64,000 nt of DNA from a virus. The position numbers and the translations under genes are program-made. The stretch lies in IMG/VR virus record IMGVR_UViG_3300017917_001151, positions 18,852-82,851 of that record. One strand, given 5' to 3'. The notes under the pieces are model-generated. The model was given only the letters and a program-made list of their open reading frames with translations. It did no database searches and was not told the DNA's origin. The first letter of the stretch is position 1; each line of letters starts with the position of its first letter. This document shows, piece after piece, positions 2,481-63,996 of the stretch.

Positions 2481-2518
2481 CCAAAGTTTTATAAGCCTAA
2501 TGTAAATAACTTATGTTC

Positions 2519-3475: not shown

Positions 3476-4036
3476 TTAACCTCCTTGTAGTCTAATATCA
3501 ACAACTTCCCAATTAATGATACGCCAAATATTAGCAAGATATTTGGCCTTGTCCTGCTGATAGTCTAGGGCCCATGCGTGTTCCCAGGCATCTATCAATA
3601 GAGCAATTTTCATACCTTTGCGGTATTCGTGATTGTGAATAGTATGTAGTTTACTATCGTAGTCCATATAGATCCAATTAGAACCCTGTGCTGCCATGAA
3701 CTCTTTTTCAAAAGCTTCTTTGAATTTGTCAAAGCTGCCGTGTACATCATCTATCAAACTTTTACTGAGTCCCTCGGGTTTGTTAGCAGCTCTAGGTGGG
3801 GTCAAGTTTGCAAAGAAGATGTTGTGCAACATAGCACCACCGTAGTTAAAATCTGCATCACCCTCGCCTGCATTATAGCGATCAAAATACTTAGATGCTA
3901 GACCGTCGTAGTGATATTTGAGAGTAGCTTCACTCATAACAGGATCTAGCTCGTCTTTTTTGAATTTAAGACGATCTTGACGAATTTCGCGCTTATCAGC
4001 GGATTCAGTTAAACTTTTAATAAAATGTAGGGCCAT
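3476..4036 (-). CDS. sodB: Fe/Mn superoxide dismutase
   Basis: Protein of 186 residues with the four metal ligands of the Fe/Mn SOD family: H42 in YHYDG, H71 in MLHNIFF, and D149 and H153 in DAWEHAW. It converts superoxide to oxygen and hydrogen peroxide. It heads an operon SOD-iscU-iscA, so oxidative protection is coupled to Fe-S assembly. The late promoter GGTAAATA ends six bases before the ATG, predicting a leaderless transcript. Fe versus Mn preference cannot be fixed by eye. Confidence 0.92.
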   Translation of the reverse strand: MALHFIKSLTESADKREIRQDRLKFKKDELDPVMSEATLKYHYDGLASKYFDRYNAGEGDADFNYGGAMLHNIFFANLTPPRAANKPEGLSKSLIDDVHGSFDKFKEAFEKEFMAAQGSNWIYMDYDSKLHTIHNHEYRKGMKIALLIDAWEHAWALDYQQDKAKYLANIWRIINWEVVDIRLQGG

Positions 4037-4041
4037 AACAA

Positions 4042-4049
4042 TATTTACC
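4042..4049 (-). promoter_or_regulatory. Late promoter GGTAAATA for sodB-iscU-iscA
   Basis: T4-type late promoter octamer whose end is six bases from the sodB ATG at 4036. It forms a back-to-back pair with GCTAAATA on the other strand. Confidence 0.6.
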
Positions 4050-5358: not shown

Positions 5359-6156
5359 TTAACGCCAGTTGTCAAGTACGAATTTATCCTGAACATCTAA
5401 AGGATTGGGTTCACCGTGAAACACAGCCACAGCACAATTAGTAGGAATTTGGACATCGTCTCGAATCGTTCTAAATATTCTACGACCATTGTTTACAGTT
5501 AATTCGTCTCTAGATCTAAGTTCCCATTTGTAACTCATGATCCAATCCTTTGGCCAAAATTTTATTCGATCTCTGGCCAACTTCCAAATCCAATCTTGAT
5601 CACCCTGGAGGCGTTGTGCGTCTGCGGGTTTTTCTTTAAATTTATTCCAAATATAACTTTCCGATCCGTGATTCCATGCTAGAACCGAACTGTTAAGATA
5701 TTGCCAAGAGGGATAGAACTTCCTATTAAAATCGTGTATCCCCATAAAAGAATCTGTTTTGTGATATGCTAGTTTATCTATATTATTACAGATAACAACA
5801 TCGAGATCAAAATACAATATGCGTCCTGCTAAAGGTAAGTTAGGATCGAACATATGTACTTTGTGCCACCAACCTTTTTGATAGTTGGCATTAGACTGGT
5901 ATACAGTTCTTACACCGTCGATGGGGTGTTGATCGTCTGTAAGACAGGCAAATTCATAAGGAACAGTCATATGTCTAGCAACCATGTTGCGTAGACGTTC
6001 TACATATTCTCTGCCGTATTTGTTACCAAACCTTACACAAAGAACAGTAATTTTTTCATCAGTGATGATTGTTGGAATCTGTTCGATTCGAGAAGCTTCT
6101 TTGGCTGCACGTTTTTCTTCTTTGAGACGTTTACGTTCTTCTTTTGACAATTCCAT
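5359..6156 (-). CDS. Glycosyltransferase-like protein with DxD motif
   Basis: Protein of 265 residues. A highly charged, probably helical N-terminus (residues 3-25, [17 protein letters not shown]) precedes a GT-A-like domain. YFDLDVVI (about residue 118) is the DxD nucleotide-sugar and metal motif, QGDQDWIW resembles the later acidic site, and [10 protein letters not shown] the C-terminal His site seen in GT8-like enzymes. It follows kdsA with a 26-base overlap, suggesting work on a Kdo-type or other surface glycan. Donor and acceptor are unknown. Confidence 0.7.
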
Positions 6157-6961
6157 CTATAGCCACCAAATCTTCTAGTATTTCTTTTAATCCGTTTAAG
6201 GGTATCATGTTAGGGCCGTCGCTAGGTGCATTGTCGGGATCTTCGTGTGTTTCCATAAACACTCCTGCGACACAGCCAGTGGCTACAGCAGCCCTCGCCA
6301 GGTAGGGCACCATTTTGCGATCTCCGCCTGATTTTTCTCCCATGCCTCCAGGTTGCTGTACAGAATGTGTTGCATCAAAGATAACGGGATAACCAGTGCT
6401 TGCCATAATAGGTAGACTGCGCATGTCCACCACAAGATTATTGTATCCATGTGTATAACCTCTTTCACATAACATAACACGATTGTTACCTGTAGAAGCA
6501 ATCTTCTCGGCAACATTTTTCATATCGTGTGGTGCAAGGAATTGTCCTTTTTTAACATTAACGGCAAGACCTGTTTCTCCTGCGGCTAATAATAGATCAG
6601 TTTGTCTGCATAAGAATGCAGGAATTTGAATTACATCTATGCCTGCATCTGCAACTAAACTGGCTTGATAACTTTCGTGTATGTCGGTGAGTACCGGTAT
6701 TCCAAATTCGTGTTTAATAGAATTTAAAATTTTTAAACCTTCGTCTATGCCAACACCTCTTTTGGTTTTGATACTAGATCTATTGGCTTTGTCAAAACTA
6801 CTTTTATAAACTAAGTCAATGTCTAATTCATCGCAGATTTCTTTTATAGAACCTGCTACATGCTCGGCATGATCTTGGCTTTCGATCTGACAAGGTCCAG
6901 CTATAAGAAAGATTTTATTTTCGTTGCTGGCGACGATTCTGTTAATATTAAATGTACGCAT
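6131..6961 (-). CDS. kdsA: 3-deoxy-D-manno-octulosonate-8-phosphate synthase
   Basis: About 276 residues. KdsA condenses phosphoenolpyruvate and arabinose-5-phosphate to Kdo-8-phosphate, the first step of Kdo synthesis for lipopolysaccharide and capsules. Diagnostic motifs are present: [64 protein letters not shown] and [16 protein letters not shown]. The start is taken at the ATG (6961) before RTFNINRI, six bases after a GGTAAATA late promoter. Followed by a glycosyltransferase. Late expression suggests use in modifying envelope or virion sugar, which is inference. Confidence 0.95.
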
Positions 6962-28371: not shown

Positions 28372-28379
28372 TATAAATA
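28372..28379 (+). promoter_or_regulatory. Late promoter TATAAATA
   Basis: Perfect T4 late consensus; the ATG of the plus-strand oxygenase gene is six bases from its end, leaving no room for a leader. Confidence 0.65.
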
Positions 28380-28384
28380 TTTTT

Positions 28385-29056
28385 ATGCTTACTAAACTCA
28401 ATTATACAGTATCTAGAGAATTAATACAAGAAGCACTTAGTAATATACCATCTGACGATTTTAGATTATCTATCAACGAGCCCACTGGTAGTTTTTTCTA
28501 CGACCCGTGGGAAGTTAAGCAGGAATTTAAAGATACTGTTTGGGACAGACTATTATCAACGTTACCTTTTGCAGTAGGCGAAGCAAGAATAATCATTTTA
28601 AAATACGGAACCTGTTATCAGAGCCACGGTGATATTGACGACAGATATCATCTTAATCTTAGCAGCCATTACGCATACCTAATAAATTTAGAAACCGAAA
28701 CAATGTATCCCTTGTCGGCCGACGGCAATTGGTACGAGATGAATGCAGGATCGAGACACAGTGCTGCAAATTTTGGATACACAAATAGAATTCAATTCGT
28801 TGTTAGAAAGCTATTGACTAGAAATAATTTGTCTAATCCTGTTAGCATTAAAATGTCATACGTGGGTTCGGATAAAGATAGTGTGAGGTTTATATTTGAT
28901 GACACAATAAGTCCTTGGTTAAACAAAGCAAACAAACAACAAATAATAACAGATTTTAATTTTGCACATAATGACGTGAGATTTAAAATAGAAAAAGAAA
29001 ATTTAACAGATATAGAAAAAATACTCCCAACAGACTTTAGGATTGAATTATTATGA
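28385..29056 (+). CDS. 2OG-Fe(II) oxygenase, Asp/Asn-hydroxylase-like
   Basis: Protein of 223 residues. The iron triad is H81-x-D83 (SHGDIDD) and H125 (GSRHSAANFG), with R135 as likely 2-oxoglutarate ligand (NRIQFVV). The wording resembles aspartyl/asparaginyl beta-hydroxylase-type enzymes. First gene of a plus-strand run to 31993. The next gene overlaps by four bases. Confidence 0.8.
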   Translation: MLTKLNYTVSRELIQEALSNIPSDDFRLSINEPTGSFFYDPWEVKQEFKDTVWDRLLSTLPFAVGEARIIILKYGTCYQSHGDIDDRYHLNLSSHYAYLINLETETMYPLSADGNWYEMNAGSRHSAANFGYTNRIQFVVRKLLTRNNLSNPVSIKMSYVGSDKDSVRFIFDDTISPWLNKANKQQIITDFNFAHNDVRFKIEKENLTDIEKILPTDFRIELL

Positions 29057-42096: not shown

Positions 42097-43218
42097 AAGT
42101 CTTTTAGGTTTCTTTGCAGGACTTTCAAACTTGTATTCTAACTCGCTAATTTCTATAGGTCCGGACCAATTCTTTTTCCAATAGTTGCTTTCAAACTTTT
42201 CTTTTAGCACGTAGTGGTCCGGGACTATATCAAGACGTTTCATTTTATTATTTGTAAACGCATCTCTTAATATAACCTGATGAATGTAATTAGTAATCGG
42301 ACCTTCGTTAAACGCTGCCCAAGGTCCGTTGTTTAATTCTTCCATATCTGCACTTCTAACATCGGGCCATTGGATTACACGAATATTCATACCCTTCCAG
42401 TTGTACATATTATGATATAAATTTTCTTCTAGGGGTGTATGAACAAGCTCGTCGCCTAACAGTTTCTTCAATGCTTTAACTGTAGTGCTTAGATAATTCC
42501 TTCCGCCGGTGCTACGACCAATGCTGGCACCCATTCTAATTCTAACTAGATTAACTTTGTCTCTACCTATCTTATCTAATTCTTCTAATATCTCAGGTAG
42601 GTGATCTAGATCCTCGAGGGTATAACCTATACCATCTAGTCGGCCGTGTTCTTTAATGTTCTCTATACCGCGAAGTTGTTTTTCGTGTACTTTTTTACCT
42701 TGATATGTCCAATGATTTAAACCTACAGCCGGTAATATAGTACGTCCGGTGAGTAGTTCTTTTGCCCAGTCGTTGTCGGCAAATCTAAGACCGTTGGTTA
42801 ACATTCTAACTTTTCCAAAGTCATCTGCTAATTTGTGACTCAATGGAATAATTTCTGAATATAGAGATGCTTCTGCTCCGGCAAGAATAGGAATAAACCC
42901 TTCTGGAAACATTTCAGGTATTCTAATTAAACTACTCATAGGACTGTCTATGTATTTGTTATCCGGAAGTTGATAACAATGAGGACAGTTTAACTGACAC
43001 TTGTTTGTTACTTCAAACATAATCGAAACAAATTCACTTTCGTCGGTTTTAGAAAGACCGTAATAGTATTCCAAATCAATTTCAACTACTTCTTCCATGA
43101 TGCCGTGCTCTGGACATTTTTTAGATAACCAAATTTTATCATCTCTTTCAAAGACAACACCTGGAATGTGTCGATAACATTCATTGCAAAGACCGACTGT
43201 ATTGTGTATAAATTTCAT
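42091..43218 (-). CDS. Radical SAM protein with N-terminal zinc-ribbon (Tes/MJ0619-like)
   Basis: Protein of 375 residues. C11, C14 and C35 in the N-terminal knuckle (LCNECYRHIPG, KKCPEHG); triad C74-C78-C81 (CQLNCPHC); LAGAEASLYS in place of GGEP, the most altered of the four. C-terminal half has RIRMGASIGRSTGG and IRVIQWPDVR shared with the other three. CATAAATA lies six bases before the ATG. Longest tail of the group, ending with a basic stretch. Confidence 0.87.
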   Translation of the reverse strand: MKFIHNTVGLCNECYRHIPGVVFERDDKIWLSKKCPEHGIMEEVVEIDLEYYYGLSKTDESEFVSIMFEVTNKCQLNCPHCYQLPDNKYIDSPMSSLIRIPEMFPEGFIPILAGAEASLYSEIIPLSHKLADDFGKVRMLTNGLRFADNDWAKELLTGRTILPAVGLNHWTYQGKKVHEKQLRGIENIKEHGRLDGIGYTLEDLDHLPEILEELDKIGRDKVNLVRIRMGASIGRSTGGRNYLSTTVKALKKLLGDELVHTPLEENLYHNMYNWKGMNIRVIQWPDVRSADMEELNNGPWAAFNEGPITNYIHQVILRDAFTNNKMKRLDIVPDHYVLKEKFESNYWKKNWSGPIEISELEYKFESPAKKPKRLL

Positions 43219-43223
43219 AGCAT

Positions 43224-43231
43224 TATTTATG
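43224..43231 (-). promoter_or_regulatory. Late promoter CATAAATA
   Basis: Octamer six bases from the minus-strand ATG at 43218; paired with TATAAATA at 43235 on the other strand, separated by three bases. Confidence 0.6.
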
Positions 43232-43234
43232 GCC

Positions 43235-43242
43235 TATAAATA
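43235..43242 (+). promoter_or_regulatory. Late promoter TATAAATA
   Basis: Perfect late consensus with the ATG at 43247 five bases after its end, again leaving no leader. Confidence 0.65.
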
Positions 43243-43246
43243 GTTG

Positions 43247-43993
43247 ATGTTTAAAATATTTGATAACTTTTTCACCGAAGAAGAGTGTAATACCGCTGCT
43301 GAATATGTAAAACAAAAAGAATCTTCATGGTATAAATGCCCGTGGACCGGTATGTATATTCTTGGAAATAGTTTGTTTCGTAAAATTACATTTACAGAAT
43401 CTGGAATAGACTACGGAAATTATTTTGAGATTGGATCTATAGATTCGCCTGCCTCACAAATTCTTAAAAATAAGTTAACAAATAATTTTAATAAAGTTGA
43501 ATTTGTGAATGGCCTTAGTAAGCCCGGATTTCAAATTATTAAATTAAACGAAAGCAAAGATCCTAGCGTCTGGCATTACGATGATATGATTACTTGTTTT
43601 CCTTTTGAAAAATATTTCAAAGACTACACAGGAAATTTTAATGAATATTTTGATCAAAAATTAATTTTTACAGTGCTGTTAAGCGATGGACACTATACTT
43701 TCGACTACTATCCCGAAACGTTATCAGAGTTTGGAAAAGATTATAAAGAAGCACGTAACACAAGTCCTATATGTCCCCAGCATCGAAATCTAATAGGAGA
43801 CGACTGTGCAAATCCGGATTGTACATTAAAGGAATTTAAAACACTTTATTATAAAAAGGGTATGATGTTATTGCAAGACGAAAGATATTTGCATCGAGTC
43901 GGACTAGTAGATTTAAATGGTACTAGTGATCTTAGAATAACTTTGCAGGGATACGGTCTTGTTAAGGACGATATTCTTTATTTGATATGGTGA
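43247..43993 (+). CDS. 2OG-Fe(II) oxygenase-like protein, 248 aa
   Basis: Starts at the ATG at 43247; the preceding TTG is also in frame but less likely. HYDD in PSVWHYDDMIT and distal H in ERYLHRVGLVDLNGTSDLRITLQGYG provide the triad and Arg. An insert of about 60 residues carries CPQH...CANPDC, a possible zinc knuckle not seen in other island oxygenases. Single-gene transcript, convergent with the methyltransferase at 43978. Confidence 0.75.
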   Translation: MFKIFDNFFTEEECNTAAEYVKQKESSWYKCPWTGMYILGNSLFRKITFTESGIDYGNYFEIGSIDSPASQILKNKLTNNFNKVEFVNGLSKPGFQIIKLNESKDPSVWHYDDMITCFPFEKYFKDYTGNFNEYFDQKLIFTVLLSDGHYTFDYYPETLSEFGKDYKEARNTSPICPQHRNLIGDDCANPDCTLKEFKTLYYKKGMMLLQDERYLHRVGLVDLNGTSDLRITLQGYGLVKDDILYLIW

Positions 43994-50751: not shown

Positions 50752-51510
50752 TTAATCCTTTAATGTTAGGGTTTCGATATCGTCCCAAATATCACCTTCT
50801 AACTCTTTAAATGCTGAAATAAAATTAAACACATTATCAACAGGCAATGTTTTTAAAATTTCTAATTTAACATTCCACCATCGTGTGGCTAACAATTCTT
50901 CTTTTATTTTATCAGGAAACCTATCTCTAATCTTTTTAGAAGTTACGCCACCTACTATTGTGTAAGGTTCTACATCTTTGGTAACAACAGCATTGGCAGC
51001 AACTACAGCCCCGTCGCCTATTTTTATGCCAGGCATAACAATAATACCATCGCCGAGATAAACATCGTTTCCAATAACAACAGGTTCGCTATTCATAGCT
51101 CTACTGCTAGTCCTATTTCTAGGAATATCTAAAATTTCAAGCTCGTAATCAGAATAATTTGATTCCCTGGCCATGATGGTATCTGGATTAATACTTACTC
51201 CGGAAAAGTTATGCATGCCTGCAGCGATAGTACAGCGATATCCTATACCGCTATGCCTACCCATAAAGACATTTGATCGCATATAACCACCACTTCGAAT
51301 GCTAGAATATGCACCGATAAAAATTCTATTTGGAGCATCTTGAAAACTCGGACTCCAATTCATAGAACCTTTTTCGAATAATGTTCCTTTTAGATGAGCA
51401 ATATCCTGACGCCTAATTTTGTAATCGTCTAATTGGTTCTCTACCAAATCGATATCTGCAGATATGGTCCTATTTAAAAATTCTTGGAGTTTATCTTCTA
51501 TGTGCTTCAT
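50752..51510 (-). CDS. Left-handed beta-helix acetyltransferase, CatB/XAT type
   Basis: About 252 residues from the ATG at 51510 (KHIEDKLQEFLNR). Hexapeptide repeats run through VFMGRHSGIGYRCTIAAGMHNF, then VVIGNDVYLGDGIIVMPGIKIGDGAVVAANAVVTKDVEPYTIVGG. The H in AGMHNF matches the catalytic His of xenobiotic and sugar O-acetyltransferases. It uses acetyl-CoA to acetylate a sugar or amine. TATAAATA lies six bases from the ATG. Confidence 0.88.
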   Translation of the reverse strand: MKHIEDKLQEFLNRTISADIDLVENQLDDYKIRRQDIAHLKGTLFEKGSMNWSPSFQDAPNRIFIGAYSSIRSGGYMRSNVFMGRHSGIGYRCTIAAGMHNFSGVSINPDTIMARESNYSDYELEILDIPRNRTSSRAMNSEPVVIGNDVYLGDGIIVMPGIKIGDGAVVAANAVVTKDVEPYTIVGGVTSKKIRDRFPDKIKEELLATRWWNVKLEILKTLPVDNVFNFISAFKELEGDIWDDIETLTLKD

Positions 51511-51515
51511 GATGA

Positions 51516-51523
51516 TATTTATA
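51516..51523 (-). promoter_or_regulatory. Late promoter TATAAATA
   Basis: Perfect consensus ending six bases from the ATG at 51510 and used to choose that start. Confidence 0.6.
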
Positions 51524-51537
51524 GGGCAAACTGGATA

Positions 51538-51545
51538 CATAAATA
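51538..51545 (+). promoter_or_regulatory. Late promoter CATAAATA
   Basis: Octamer ending six bases from the plus-strand ATG at 51551; divergent partner of 51516. Confidence 0.6.
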
Positions 51546-51550
51546 GATTT

Positions 51551-52111
51551 ATGGATTTTACTGATATTAAAGCTGCGGCTGTAGATTTAGAAGTTAACGA
51601 TGATCAGTTAACCAACGAATTATTGTCAATACCAGACGACAAATGGAACACTGGTAAAGATCAATATTCTGGACACCTATGGAAAAATATTTTTTTAACA
51701 AAAAATAATAAAGAAGAATTTGATGATTTTAAATCTGCAAAGGCTATCCCTCATTCGGCATGGAAGTGGGACGATGATTTAAATATACCGTACATAAAAT
51801 CTCTAGTTGAGGCATTACCTGTTAAACATATTGGCATGGTTAGAGCATTTATTTTAGATGGACCTCTGGTAATGCATGTTGATAGTAACGAAACAACTCC
51901 AGAAGATATATCTTACAAATTGGGATTAACTATCGCTTCTAAGTTAGAGTCGCCTATGACAATGCCAGGTATAACTGTAGAAGAAAAATATGTGTTATTC
52001 AACGATAGTTTCCCTCACGGATTTCCAGACGGTCAAGGTCAGCAAATTAGTATACGTGTGTTTGGCGACTTTGACTACGACAAATTTAAAATTAAAAAAA
52101 TTTACAAATGA
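51551..52111 (+). CDS. 2OG-Fe(II) oxygenase-like protein
   Basis: About 186 residues from the ATG at 51551 (DFTDIKAAAVDLEVND). H-V-D in LVMHVDSNETTPED and a distal H in SFPHGFPDGQGQQISIRVFG with Arg. The region upstream in the same frame overlaps promoters and is excluded. Ends in an ATGA overlap with the next oxygenase. Confidence 0.72.
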   Translation: MDFTDIKAAAVDLEVNDDQLTNELLSIPDDKWNTGKDQYSGHLWKNIFLTKNNKEEFDDFKSAKAIPHSAWKWDDDLNIPYIKSLVEALPVKHIGMVRAFILDGPLVMHVDSNETTPEDISYKLGLTIASKLESPMTMPGITVEEKYVLFNDSFPHGFPDGQGQQISIRVFGDFDYDKFKIKKIYK

Positions 52112-58886: not shown

Positions 58887-59137
58887 TTCACTTCTCCTGC
58901 GTGTTTGATGATAAACATAGTTACTTCGGGGCCGTCGAGTTTAACACAATCCACAGGATATTTGTTTTTCTCTGAGCCCCAACCGTTTTTACCAATACGG
59001 CGAACGCCAATCATCTTAGGATTAATCTTACGAACAACTCCGATGACTAAACTATTGCTCTGAGGATAGGCAACACAGTCGCCCATGTTTAAGACACGAC
59101 CAAGTTGGTCTCGGTGTTCTGGGAGTTCTTTTGCCAT
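58883..59137 (-). CDS. Small phage protein, 84 aa, SH3/KOW-like pattern
   Basis: MAKELPEHRDQLGRVLNMGDCVAYPQ then SLVIGVVRKINPKMIGVRRIG suggests a small beta-barrel. Overlaps the 3' end of the release-factor gene by about 49 bases. No firm family. Confidence 0.55.
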   Translation of the reverse strand: MAKELPEHRDQLGRVLNMGDCVAYPQSNSLVIGVVRKINPKMIGVRRIGKNGWGSEKNKYPVDCVKLDGPEVTMFIIKHAGEVK

Positions 59138-59805
59138 AATAGATCTAGATTGCCTTTCAGAATCTGTGAGCAGGTTGCTCGTTTGCCTGTTACGTGATCT
59201 TGGACAGAATCATCTTGGAATCTATATGTGCGGATTTTGTCTCCACGCATACCCGATCCTACCTGACGCTTTCTATCGTTTGCTATGTTACTATTATACG
59301 ATCTTTTGACGGTTTCGTCAAGTTGATTTTGGATAGCAGACATAGCCTGATCTAGGCTATTTTGGCGACTACGGCATTCTGCTTTGGCTGTGATACCTGT
59401 GGGAAGGTGTGTGATACGGCAGCTATTTTGGTGCTTGTTCCGATATTGTCCACCAGCACCTGTACCGCTATACCATTCAATCTTTAGATCGTTTTTGGCA
59501 ACAGCAACAGATCCAATTTCTGTTGTGCGGTCTATGACGGCAACAGTAACGGTGCTAGTGTGGACTCGGCCCTTCCTTTCGGTCGGAGGCACTCGCTGGA
59601 TTCTATGACCACCGGGCTCATTGTCTAAGCCGGATAGATCTTTGCCCTCTACAAGTAAACTACACTCGCCAGGACGAACATCTATCAGGCGGGTAGTTCA
59701 ACCCTTTTTGGCTCCGAGTTTCTGATACGCACCCGCGAGATCAGACACAAACAGTTTACTATCTTCTCCGCCCTCTGCGGCACGGATTTCAATCACTCGT
59801 TTCAT
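59089..59805 (-). CDS. Shortened class I release factor with in-frame UGA
   Basis: The ATG at 59805 (KRVIEIRAAEGGEDSKLF) follows AAGGAG and is nine bases after the IF-1 stop. The frame is open to a TGA at 59700-59698, then stays open in the same frame to 59089. The two parts join as one release factor: GGHRIQRVPPTERKGRVHTS contains a PxT tripeptide (PPT), which reads UAA/UAG in RF1-type factors, and GTGAGGQYRNKHQNS contains the catalytic GGQ. UGA stands where family members have Trp. Domain 1 is absent. Readthrough, recoding or mutation are all possible. Confidence 0.8.
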
Positions 59806-59814
59806 AGTTACTCC

Positions 59815-60033
59815 TTATAAACGATATGTAACACGACCTTTGGTTAGATCGTATGCACTAACTTCTACTCTTACTTTGTCACCTAAGATAATTTTAATCT
59901 TGTGCTGTTTAAGTTTGCCACCGGTATAGCAGGTAATTGTACTAGGCATCTCGTTGAGTTTTACCTTATACATACTGCCCGGAAGGACTTCTTCTACTGT
60001 GCCTGTGAGTTCAATTAAATCAGCTTTTGACAT
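59815..60033 (-). CDS. infA: Translation initiation factor IF-1
   Basis: Protein of 72 residues from the ATG at 60033; an upstream in-frame extension lacks a Shine-Dalgarno sequence, while AGAGAAG precedes 60033. ELTGTVEEVLPGSMYKVKL, GGKLKQHKIKIILGDKVRVE and YDLTKGRVTYR match the full OB fold of IF-1. IF-1 binds the A site of the 30S subunit with IF-2 and IF-3. Lies upstream of the release-factor gene and downstream of deformylase and tRNA genes, forming a translation cluster. Confidence 0.93.
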   Translation of the reverse strand: MSKADLIELTGTVEEVLPGSMYKVKLNEMPSTITCYTGGKLKQHKIKIILGDKVRVEVSAYDLTKGRVTYRL

Positions 60034-60244
60034 ATCTTCTCTTGTACCAACTGTAAGTTTCTCCGTTTGGCAATTTGCCTTCTTTGATTTCGTCAGCGCC
60101 AAAGACACCAACTATTTCCATACCGCCACCGTTTATTGTGACCAGTATGCCCAATTCTTTTGCGAAAGCTAGAGCTTCCGATAGATCTTTTACTGCTTCC
60201 TCACAGCCTCTACCCGCTGTGTCTTTCCATTCTACTTTATACAT
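60020..60244 (-). CDS. Small phage protein, 74 aa
   Basis: MYKVEWKDTAGRGCEEAVKDLSEALAFAKE followed by beta-strands and KLPNGETYSWYKRRY. Start at the ATG at 60244 because the frame upstream overlaps the tRNA-Thr. Overlaps IF-1 start by 14 bases. Family unknown. Confidence 0.55.
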   Translation of the reverse strand: MYKVEWKDTAGRGCEEAVKDLSEALAFAKELGILVTINGGGMEIVGVFGADEIKEGKLPNGETYSWYKRRYVKS

Positions 60245-60280
60245 TCTACTATTATATATCCGTTTTGTCTGTGTGTCAAG

Positions 60281-60354
60281 TGGTGCTCCAACCAAGAATT
60301 GAACTTGGATCTGCACTTTACCAAAGTGCTGTTCTACCATTTAACTATAGGAGC
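60281..60354 (-). tRNA. tRNA-Thr(GGU)
   Basis: Anticodon arm GCACT-TTGGTAA-AGTGC with anticodon GGT, D arm GTT...AAC, T arm with TTCAATT, encoded CCA. The acceptor stem has one T-T mismatch at pair 6-67. The body is close to bacterial tRNA-Thr. Confidence 0.9.
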
Positions 60355-60358
60355 ATAT

Positions 60359-60433
60359 TGGCCCGGCTAGCAGGAATCGAACCCACATTCACTCTTTAGA
60401 AGAGAGTTGTATTCTCCATTATACGATAGCCAG
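60359..60433 (-). tRNA. tRNA-Arg(UCU)
   Basis: Acceptor CTGGCTA pairs with TAGCCGG, anticodon arm ACTCT-CTTCTAA-AGAGT (UCU), T loop TTCGATT, encoded CCA. Decodes AGA and AGG, frequent codons in AT-rich genomes. Confidence 0.9.
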
Positions 60434-60434
60434 A

Positions 60435-60872
60435 TTATCTGTCGAACATTGTAAGACCGTTGAGGTGGTCTAGTTCGTGTTGGAAACATCTTGCGGCCCA
60501 ACCATCTAACCACTCTAGGGTTTCTTTGCCCTGTGCGGAATAGTAGCGGACTAAGATTTTCTTTGGCCTGTTTATTTCGCAGAACTGTCCCGAGAAGCTT
60601 AGACAACCTTCTGTGAGGTTTACCTGCTCTTCGCTGGATTCTACAATCTCAGGATTGAAGCAGTGATAAAACTTGTTGTCTACAAACATTACAAACAATC
60701 TAACATTTAAACCGCATTGATTAGCGGCCAAGCCCATGCCGCGTTCTTTCTGCATAGTGCGGATCATTTGATGTGCTAGTTCTAGATTCTTTTTAGGACG
60801 TTCAAAGGTTACTGGCGCACAGACGTCTTTTAATACTGAGCTATCTAGTTTTAAATTAGTAAACTTCAACAT
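60435..60872 (-). CDS. def: Peptide deformylase
   Basis: Protein of 145 residues. GMGLAANQ at residues 45-52, EGCLS at 88-92 (Cys90 metal ligand) and H132-E133-x-x-H136 (QHELDH) are the three deformylase motifs. Removes the N-formyl group from new proteins. Lacks the C-terminal helix, as in other phage-type deformylases. The start overlaps the oxygenase at 60856 by 17 bases. Two bases separate its stop from tRNA-Arg. Confidence 0.95.
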   Translation of the reverse strand: MLKFTNLKLDSSVLKDVCAPVTFERPKKNLELAHQMIRTMQKERGMGLAANQCGLNVRLFVMFVDNKFYHCFNPEIVESSEEQVNLTEGCLSFSGQFCEINRPKKILVRYYSAQGKETLEWLDGWAARCFQHELDHLNGLTMFDR

Positions 60873-61428
60873 CTGCGGCTAGAATAAACCTATATTGATT
60901 ACTTTGTACGATACCTGGTCTATGCCAGGTTTGGCTAGGATAGACGATCCAATGTCCGTCATTTGGACGAACGAAGAATTTACCATCGCCATCTACACCG
61001 TTGGGTGCTATTTCTGTTCCGCAGTAGTCTCGATCTTTTACATCATCGGGAATATGCAGATACCAAATACCACTGAACATACGAGCACCGGGCTGTGTTG
61101 GATGCCAGTGGTCATGCCATAGTTTTTCGCGATCTTCGGCACCCTCGAGATTGGTCATAAAAGACCAAGCCATCATATTACCAACTTTGGCTTCACGACC
61201 TAGGTACATGAATACGGAAAATAGAAAGCTCATACGATACTTTAACCAAACAGCTTCGGGTCTACCAAAAATATTTTCTTTGGTCTGATACTTAGGACTG
61301 TTAGTGAAGTAGTTGCCACCTTCGATTATTTGTTTGATTATTTCGCAGGCTTCAAAGTCATCCTGTTTAGTGATCAAAGAACTAAAATCGTATTTGCGAA
61401 CTAGAGCGTTTTCTTCTATAGCTATCAT
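60856..61428 (-). CDS. 2OG-Fe(II) oxygenase-like protein (PF13759-like)
   Basis: Protein of 190 residues. LWHDHWHPTQPGARMFSGIWYL carries the HxH-SGxYY pattern of the phage PF13759-like family, with distal H in PSQTWHRPG and Arg at QYRFIL. It lies outside the island, between tRNA-Gly and deformylase. It may hydroxylate a protein such as a translation component, which is only context-based inference. Confidence 0.75.
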   Translation of the reverse strand: MIAIEENALVRKYDFSSLITKQDDFEACEIIKQIIEGGNYFTNSPKYQTKENIFGRPEAVWLKYRMSFLFSVFMYLGREAKVGNMMAWSFMTNLEGAEDREKLWHDHWHPTQPGARMFSGIWYLHIPDDVKDRDYCGTEIAPNGVDGDGKFFVRPNDGHWIVYPSQTWHRPGIVQSNQYRFILAADVEVY

Positions 61429-61433
61429 GAATT

Positions 61434-61506
61434 TGGAGCGGGTAGTCGGATTCGAACCGGCTTCATTAGCTTGGAAGGCTAAGTCCTCTCCCAGGAGAAT
61501 ACCCGC
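61434..61506 (-). tRNA. tRNA-Gly(UCC)
   Basis: Acceptor GCGGGTA with TACCCGC, anticodon arm TTAGC-CTTCCAA-GCTAA (UCC), T loop TTCGAAT, discriminator T, encoded CCA. Confidence 0.92.
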
Positions 61507-61557
61507 ATTGTTTGTGACACAGTACTTATCCTATTATACGCCCGTGTCCGGCGAACC

Positions 61558-61631
61558 TGGTTGCGGGAGGCGGAATCGAACCACCATCTGAAGCTTATGA
61601 GACTTCTGAATTACCGTTACTCTATCCCGCG
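61558..61631 (-). tRNA. tRNA-Met(CAU), initiator-like
   Basis: Acceptor CGCGGGA with TCCCGCA leaves C1 opposite A72, the unpaired end that marks bacterial initiator tRNA. The D stem has A11-U24, also initiator-type. Anticodon arm GAAGT-CTCATAA-GCTTC gives CAU but lacks the three consecutive G-C pairs of standard initiators. Encoded CCA. Located near IF-1 and deformylase. Confidence 0.85.
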
Positions 61632-63519: not shown

Positions 63520-63920
63520 AAACACACTAATCTACCCTATGTAGCTATGTTGATCAGTCAAAACATCAAGCTCAACTAATGTGTTTTATAATAGTGCCTA
63601 AGGTTGAGATTACACCTTAAGCTAATAGTGCTTCTAGCATTATAGTCAGCCTTGCGAGCCAACCTTCTCTAGACATCCACTAAGACCCTTGCGGTATCCT
63701 AGTCCACTATCAGCATCGCCGTTTTTAAAGACAGGCAGTAGTCTTGTCGCCATATGCTATTCTACGCTTTCTTTTCCGTTGAGCTTGCGACCCATTAAGC
63801 CTTGCGGGCTACGAAACTTCCTGCATAAACAGATTTCACCTTGCGAGCTACGTCTGACTGTATTACCTTTCGGCTACAGTATTAGATGCTTTTCACATAC
63901 GACCGAGGCAGTCTTTGCGT
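63520..63920 (-). ncRNA. Candidate structured RNA with repeated GNRA hairpins
   Basis: About 400 bases without a convincing gene, between tRNA-Pro and tRNA-Lys. The plus strand carries CTTGCG or CTTTCG elements at about 63650, 63688, 63784, 63801, 63840 and 63867. On the minus strand most form short hairpins capped by GCAA or GAAA, for example ACC-GCAA-GGGT and CTGTAGCC-GAAA-GGTAATACAG. Two copies share CTTGCGRGCTACG. Open frames here are broken by stops and repetitive. No match to RNase P or tmRNA landmarks that I can see. Confidence 0.45.
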
Positions 63921-63924
63921 TTTT

Positions 63925-63996
63925 GTTCGATAGTTGGAGTTGAACCAACAGTCAAATGCTTAAAAGGCATTCGCATTACCATTATGCTATATCAAC
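63925..63996 (-). tRNA. tRNA-Lys(UUU)
   Basis: Anticodon arm AATGC-CTTTTAA-GCATT (UUU), D stem GCAT/ATGC, T arm GTTGG-TTCAACT-CCAAC. The acceptor stem is imperfect (G1 opposite A72, T3-G70) and no CCA is encoded, unlike the other tRNAs here. Confidence 0.8.

Follow-up and report, generated by a model that had tools for sequence, protein, structure and literature searches.

Introduction

Genomes of huge phages carry IF-1, peptide deformylase (PDF), release factors and many tRNAs, a repertoire that has been read as redirected host translation (Al-Shayeb et al. 2020, PMC7162821). The occurrence of these proteins in such phages is already known, as is the control of a release factor by UGA in the form of the bacterial prfB (RF2) frameshift. 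A same-frame UGA was once anticipated for RF2 and is reported absent from bacteria: it was seen in no RF2 gene, and the corresponding UAG in no RF1 gene (review, PMC5009743). The present study concerns a locus in a 64,000-nucleotide stretch of viral DNA (hereafter the window), which comprises bases 18852 to 82851 of the 82.9-kb IMG/VR record IMGVR_UViG_3300017917_001151 and ends where the contig ends. Its minus strand carries an initiator-like tRNA-Met, the gene for IF-1, a PDF gene and an RF1-type release-factor gene with an early in-frame UGA. We propose, with moderate confidence in the explanation as a whole, that this locus serves translation control in a lineage of T4-type (Gp23) jumbo phages.

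The initial annotation had placed infA, def and a tRNA-Met with C1-A72 and A11-U24 within 59815 to 61631, and had added a release factor to the set. Pfam, Rfam and tRNA calls bore out all three genes and their coordinates; the release factor is RF1-like and lies just outside this interval, at 59089 to 59805 (minus strand). The in-frame UGA with its stem-loop and the TAAATA late box standing 4 to 5 nt before ATG were absent from that annotation. Gene identities, conservation, linkage, UGA conservation, RNA covariation and box spacing were computed directly.

Results

A conserved in-frame UGA in the release-factor gene

The release-factor gene and its RNA elements are as follows.
59089 to 59805, minus strand: RF1-type release factor without domain 1, 238 aa if read through the internal UGA, with the PPT stop-codon motif and GAGGQ
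59698 to 59700, minus strand: in-frame UGA, codon 36 of the release factor, at the site of a conserved Trp in bacterial RF1
59687 to 59704, minus strand: short hairpin around the UGA (columns 27-44 of alignment A1), without both-side changes
59633 to 59686, minus strand: main conserved stem-loop, predicted readthrough stimulator (columns 45-98 of alignment A1), with compensatory changes
59616 to 59630, minus strand: third small hairpin (columns 101-115 of alignment A1)

The gene reads MKRVIEIRAAEGGEDSKLFVSDLAGAYQKLGAKKG-UGA-TTRLIDV... in a single frame. The prfA profile exceeded that of prfB by about 80 bits; its score of 201 bits stands below the equivalog cut-off of 423. The protein is not a full-length RF1; the match starts at profile position 107-115, domain 1 being absent. 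PPT and GAGGQ are invariant among the phage release factors, and the PPT motif suggests recognition of UAA and UAG. UGA occupies codon 36 in 65/65 distinct phage copies spanning the site, some of them as low as about 65% in identity, and aligns with a Trp of bacterial RF1 structures. This conservation rules out a sequencing error or a pseudogene. An RF2-type +1 frameshift at a CUU UGA C slip site was also ruled out, as the downstream sequence continues in frame 0 and the +1 frame meets UGA UAG at once. Thus, the UGA is very probably recoded. The read-through product was predicted to adopt an RF1-like fold (mean pLDDT, the predicted local distance difference test score, 79.5); the best matches of this model in the Protein Data Bank are RF1, at a template-modelling score of about 0.5 and a root-mean-square deviation near 8 Å that leave the domain arrangement uncertain.

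Could UGA be read as an amino acid everywhere by the phage or its host? Nothing beyond the UGA itself speaks for this. UGA ends 27 of the 79 open reading frames (ORFs) of the window, and ignoring it adds less than 1% coding. The remaining Trp codons of the phage release factors are all TGG (140/140), and no tRNA with a UCA anticodon was seen in G003 or G006, two 364-kb relatives. Genome-wide reassignment is therefore scarcely credible. Since UGA is a normal stop elsewhere in the window, programmed readthrough is predicted at codon 36.

A split gene, in which translation stops at the UGA and restarts internally to give a short peptide and a truncated factor, would suit the first 35 codons being closed by UGA. 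However, codons 37 to 75 hold no conserved in-frame start, and the protein is conserved on both sides of the UGA as one RF1 domain in which Trp is expected at the stop. These features render a split gene very improbable.

Release-factor genes of other phages showed further stop codons. In L433 (LR745208.1, 63324-64260), from a 485-kb uncultured phage, the gene contains AGGGG ... CTT TGA C and continues in the +1 frame; this prfB-type site is near the codon where the window's lineage has its same-frame UGA. Four phages of 634 to 735 kb (L432, L434, L435 and L436; LR745206, LR756501, LR756502 and LR756504) carry in-frame TGA at other codons of the release factor; for two of these phages, a simple ORF test gave no clear sign of genome-wide recoding.

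RNA structure at the UGA

Synonymous identity exceeded expectation by about 0.1 upstream and by 0.45 to 0.57 over codons 31 to 51, with smaller rises elsewhere in the gene; the peak is located around and just 3′ of the UGA. RNAalifold gave a stem of 20 pairs that begins 11 nt downstream of the UGA. Changes on both sides were found in 10 of the 30 pairs of the whole RNA structure. The covariation score was above all 500 shuffles, a control in which relatedness is not kept, and above every slid register; the slid registers and the codon-permuted control weigh more. In the latter, the main-clade mean folding energy was -36.95 compared with -33.93 (sd 0.41) for permuted alignments. The structure was tested on a 14-sequence set and by subclade. 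In a divergent subclade, a strong stem of different sequence occupies the same position, and RNAalifold on all 63 sequences together returned almost no consensus (-0.4) because the subclades pair different bases. Two hallmarks of structure-stimulated readthrough, a conserved stop with a same-frame extension and a conserved 3′ stem-loop a few nt beyond it, are present. Recoding of the UGA by stem-stimulated readthrough is likely.

An initiator-like tRNA linked to IF-1

The initiation and processing genes of the locus are as follows.
61558 to 61631, minus strand: initiator-like tRNA-Met(CAU) with C1xA72, G2:C71, C3:G70, A73, A11:U24, loop CUCAUAA and encoded CCA; Rfam tRNA score 53.7 bits
within 61558 to 61631, minus strand: anticodon stem of this tRNA, A29-U41 / G30-C40 / U31.G39
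59815 to 60033, minus strand: infA-like gene for translation initiation factor IF-1, 72 aa; Pfam eIF-1a PF01176, 66.5 bits against a cut-off of 30.2
60435 to 60872, minus strand: PDF, 145 aa; PF01327, 137.5 bits; motifs GMGLAANQ, EGCLS and HELDH

Formylation of an initiator depends on a 1:72 mismatch, G2:C71, C3:G70 and A11:U24 (PMC7949028). ARAGORN, run on all fetched loci, yielded 65 distinct CAU tRNAs, and position 1:72 is unpaired in 43 of them (CA in 34, AA in 5), nearly all from relatives of the window locus; the window tRNA is of the CA type. Within this class G2:C71 (42/43), C3:G70 (41/43) and A73 (almost invariant) are kept, A11:U24 occurs in 27/43, and the loop is CUCAUAA, the normal initiator loop, in all 43. 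A pattern scan gave 63 further distinct copies, with 1:72 being CA in 47, AA in 11, UA in 4 and GA in 1, and A11:U24 in 53/63; as A72 and the 29-31 stem were part of the search pattern, this set is independent only at position 1, at the 5′ bases of pairs 2:71 and 3:70, and at 11:24. The three consecutive G-C pairs of bacterial tRNA-fMet at 29-31/39-41 are absent: 30:40 alone is G-C (42/43), 29:41 is A-U in 36/43 and 31:39 is U.G in 38/43. In this respect, Samhita, Shetty and Varshney (PNAS, 2012) are said to have found E. coli viable on an initiator without the first and third G-C pairs if the middle one stays. By its identity elements, then, the tRNA is probably of the initiator type. Judged on sequence, it keeps all formylation determinants, yet is an unconventional initiator that retains the middle G30:C40 pair alone. 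The initiator marks that had been assigned to it hold to this extent: the formylation determinants are complete, the tRNA differs from the G1:C72 CAU tRNAs, and two of the three G-C pairs are missing.

The paired 1:72 end typical of tRNA-Ile2 and elongator tRNA-Met was not found in the window tRNA. Separate G1:C72 CAU tRNAs of the elongator or Ile2 type coexist in the same large relatives, and the initiator-like gene is therefore not their elongator. Both observations disfavour an Ile2 or elongator identity for the C1xA72 tRNA. A subtler possibility is that it descends from an initiator and, with its P-site determinant lost, now decodes internal AUG. The loss of two G-C pairs and the U:A at 1:72 in the relative from Salmonella phage SalP219 would fit, and an initiator tRNA can elongate at low formylation (PMC7949028). 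On the other side, the 1:72 mismatch, which hinders EF-Tu and favours formylation, has been kept over wide divergence, and the G1:C72 tRNAs are again at hand; we find such a switch distinctly unlikely.

It could instead be a counter-defence replacement, whose altered anticodon stem resists VapC-type anticodon nucleases that cut the host initiator tRNA. VapC cuts at the tRNA 38/39 region, which U31.G39 and A29-U41 of the phage tRNA adjoin. Cleavage of initiator tRNA by VapC enzymes is known (PMC4105405); nuclease-evading changes are often seen on phage tRNAs, and phages of a VapC host generally avoid encoding tRNA-fMet (PMC10264068). However, the loop is that of a normal initiator in 43/43, and counter-defence leaves the IF-1 linkage and the leaderless-type promoters unexplained. 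Thus, we consider this explanation unlikely.

The phage tRNA has a shortened D loop and belongs to a phage-specific sequence family. Its stem and acceptor-end signature was found in 1 of 84,980 cellular genomes as against at least 120 viral contigs, and the sole cellular match, in a tRNA array of a Bacteroidia metagenome-assembled genome, has U1:A72; a recent copy of a host initiator is thereby disfavoured. A plasmid search with the tRNA gave no match. The Bacteroidia contig (L307) bears a dense array of 18 tRNAs, many of them odd, which adjoins a TROVE/Ro-like ORF as judged from its sequence. Related tRNAs in SalP219, Synechococcus phage S-CRM01 and Pantoea phage AAS21 begin with U1. Initiator-derived CAU tRNAs are therefore not confined to the window's lineage.

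The window IF-1 covers the PF01176 eIF-1a/IF-1 domain over its full length (1-64/64). Relatives were found in 255 viral stretches, and 80 loci were kept for linkage counts. The initiator-like tRNA is present at 52 of these 80, on the IF-1 strand in 53/53 cases and at a distance of 0.7 to 4.5 kb; a release factor is near IF-1 in 11/80. Because the tRNA features recur in the 43 distinct tRNAs and 63 pattern-scan copies, and at 52/80 IF-1 loci, the set is more than chance. The initial annotation had described a clustered set for initiation and N-terminal processing. Its tRNA and IF-1 are linked and co-oriented, whereas PDF is near IF-1 at 0 of the relatives' 80 loci and clusters with it in the window contig only; a conserved cluster that includes PDF is thus not supported. 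The three metal/catalytic motifs of the window PDF are intact by eye. Of 11 records, 6 encode PDF, and a search of all 11 for a phage formyltransferase was negative. A second, partial IF-1 lies at G005:C1:128559-128684 and is preceded by a TAAATA-N5-ATG site.

Late boxes directly before start codons

The predicted leaderless starts of the window are as follows.
2503 to 2515, plus strand: late box TAAATA-N4-ATG
4034 to 4047, minus strand: late box TAAATA-N5-ATG, predicted leaderless superoxide dismutase gene
28374 to 28387, plus strand: late box TAAATA-N5-ATG
43216 to 43229, minus strand: late box TAAATA-N5-ATG
43237 to 43249, plus strand: late box TAAATA-N4-ATG
51508 to 51521, minus strand: late box TAAATA-N5-ATG
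51540 to 51553, plus strand: late box TAAATA-N5-ATG

Spacing was measured from TAAATA to an ATG that opens an ORF of at least 80 codons. A sharp peak at 4 to 5 nt was observed in the window (10 cases), G003 (22) and G006 (23), for which control hexamers gave about 1, 3.5 and 2.6. Across ten IF-1-bearing records, TAAATA-N4-5-ATG occurs 223 times against 62 reversed-pattern controls; G010, a relative without detected IF-1, has 6 against 7. The excess is absent (sites/controls) in T4 (10/12), P-SSM2 (6/10), KVP40 (3/5) and CBB (7/22). Spacings of 11 to 12 are not enriched, and a broad second peak lies at 16 to 24 nt, where a Shine-Dalgarno-like motif is present in 38/66. Genes predicted to be leaderless include those for the terminase large subunit, the tail tube and virion proteins; by coordinates, the PDF gene of G004 and G005 also appears to start at a TAAATA-N4-5-ATG site. 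The T4 late box ends at -6; therefore, a 5-nt gap places +1 on the A of ATG. From this promoter-box spacing, late transcription in the lineage is quite probably leaderless.

Alternatively, the spacing might reflect another signal, such as an A/T-rich translation enhancer, rather than a transcription start. Other A/T hexamers of similar composition have no such peak; TAAATA is a known T4 late element, and T4-type Gp23 capsid protein occurs in all ten large relatives, nine of which have IF-1. Furthermore, a second class of TAAATA sites, many with a Shine-Dalgarno-like motif, stands at 16 to 24 nt. We deem this alternative quite improbable.

Gene order and neighbouring features

In the direction of transcription, the minus strand carries tRNA-Met(cat), tRNA-Gly, an ORF like 2-oxoglutarate (2OG) oxygenases, PDF, tRNA-Arg, tRNA-Thr, a 74-aa ORF, IF-1 and the RF1-type release factor. 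The remaining features are as follows.
60020 to 60244, minus strand: small 74-aa ORF of unknown function, upstream of and overlapping infA
60281 to 60433, minus strand: tRNA-Thr(ggt) and tRNA-Arg(tct)
61434 to 61506, minus strand: tRNA-Gly(tcc)

An ORF similar to the 74-aa one precedes the release-factor gene in several relatives. The ORF at 60856-61428 (minus), which overlaps the PDF start, has a weak 2OG-Fe(II) oxygenase-like match under the Pfam cut-off. A GOLLD RNA (Rfam RF02032, 179.6 bits) at 63601-63987 (minus) overlaps a tRNA-Lys at the contig end. Between 6000 and 54400, the window has many radical-SAM, AMP-binding and hexapeptide-transferase genes together with a DAHP synthase (6131-6961), perhaps for surface polysaccharide or metabolite synthesis. 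G003 and G006 each have a tmRNA, with about 31 and 46 tRNAs, respectively, by ARAGORN; both also carry a CUA-anticodon (amber) tRNA, labelled "Pyl" by ARAGORN (L297, G003 339529-339603; L280, G006 363408-363482).

Discussion

From these data we infer that the tRNA is formylated and active in initiation, that late transcription is leaderless, that the UGA is read through and senses RF2, and that tRNA, leaderless mRNAs and release factor are linked. The phage tRNA would be charged by the host methionyl-tRNA synthetase and formylated by the host formyltransferase Fmt; no phage enzyme was found in the 11 records. C1xA72 would make the tRNA a poor ligand of EF-Tu, and it would act with phage IF-1 in the P site of the ribosome. 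Such an unconventional initiator may work best under a shortage of the host initiator, or on mRNAs that evade the usual 30S/IF3 scrutiny. Many late genes would be transcribed from a T4-type late box with +1 at the ATG or adjacent to it. Their mRNAs would be leaderless, and the tRNA and IF-1 would support starts on them; PDF, where present, would deformylate the products. In E. coli, leaderless initiation is supported by IF2 and opposed by IF3 (PMC2268962). The initial annotation had suggested a role on leaderless mRNAs. The late boxes 4 to 5 nt before ATG lend weight to such mRNAs, and the coupling of tRNA, IF-1 and leaderless mRNAs is plausible, although we put it a little below even.

The RF1-type factor would be made by programmed readthrough of the early UGA, probably via tRNA-Trp, with stimulation by the 3′ stem-loop. 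Its output would rise when termination at UGA by host RF2 is slow. Since the PPT motif implies reading of UAA and UAG, output would follow host RF2 activity and not that of the factor itself; that the readthrough senses RF2 is a tentative proposal. Taken together, these features could form a second initiation and termination programme in the host, in which late genes are leaderless by promoter design, a phage-only initiator with the middle G-C pair works with IF-1, and RF1, switched on by RF2-sensing UGA readthrough, brings termination under phage control. As a complete scheme we hold this to be rather unlikely.

Several points weigh against our interpretation. Two of the three initiator G-C pairs are missing, and in E. 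coli initiation is poor when all three are altered in the initiator or when the middle pair is reversed (PMC2268962). The PDF linkage is not conserved. A mild 4 to 5 nt excess is also seen in S-PM2 (6/3), S-TIM5 (6/2) and S-CRM01 (7/1); besides, shared ancestry alone may account for the occurrence of leaderless starts together with IF-1, and G010 may be incomplete. The main-clade whole-alignment RNAalifold signal is modest (-11.6 vs -7.6, sd 1.65). Finally, a PPT-type RF1 should not read UGA, so that direct autoregulation is not apparent.

The release-factor arrangement is conserved across dozens of phages together with a covarying RNA element, and a simple reporter could test it. The phage-only tRNA bears on the reach of the three-G-C rule. 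Its co-occurrence with predicted leaderless late genes provides a natural setting in which to ask if viruses initiate translation by a separate route.

Our searches of open-licence papers turned up neither a phage initiator tRNA with linkage to IF-1 nor UGA readthrough in phage release factors. An initiator tRNA is not mentioned in the main text on huge phages, where we also came across neither leaderless starts nor UGA readthrough (PMC7162821). With bacterial tRNA-fMet, the phage tRNA shares the 1:72 mismatch, G2:C71, C3:G70, A11:U24, the CUCAUAA loop and A73, and it differs in having the middle G-C pair only, a shortened D loop and a phage-specific sequence family. The late boxes resemble those of T4 late promoters, a TATAAATA-type box in Gp23 phages; in T4, however, a leader with a Shine-Dalgarno sequence follows and the class with ATG 4 to 5 nt after the box is lacking. 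As in bacterial prfB, an early UGA in a release-factor gene would gate synthesis, but here the factor is of the RF1 type, the predicted reading is same-frame readthrough instead of a +1 frameshift, and a stem-loop follows on the 3′ side. In Moloney murine leukaemia virus (MuLV) gag-pol, a stop codon is followed by a short spacer and then a stable structure. The window's lineage shares with MuLV-type readthrough the order of stop and 3′ RNA structure, and differs in that a phage and a bacterial ribosome are involved and the product is a release factor. One case from a giant amoeba virus, cited in PMC5009743, also has a viral release factor that is made by reading through a stop codon; there the host is eukaryotic, whereas the present lineage has an RNA structure conserved across dozens of phages.

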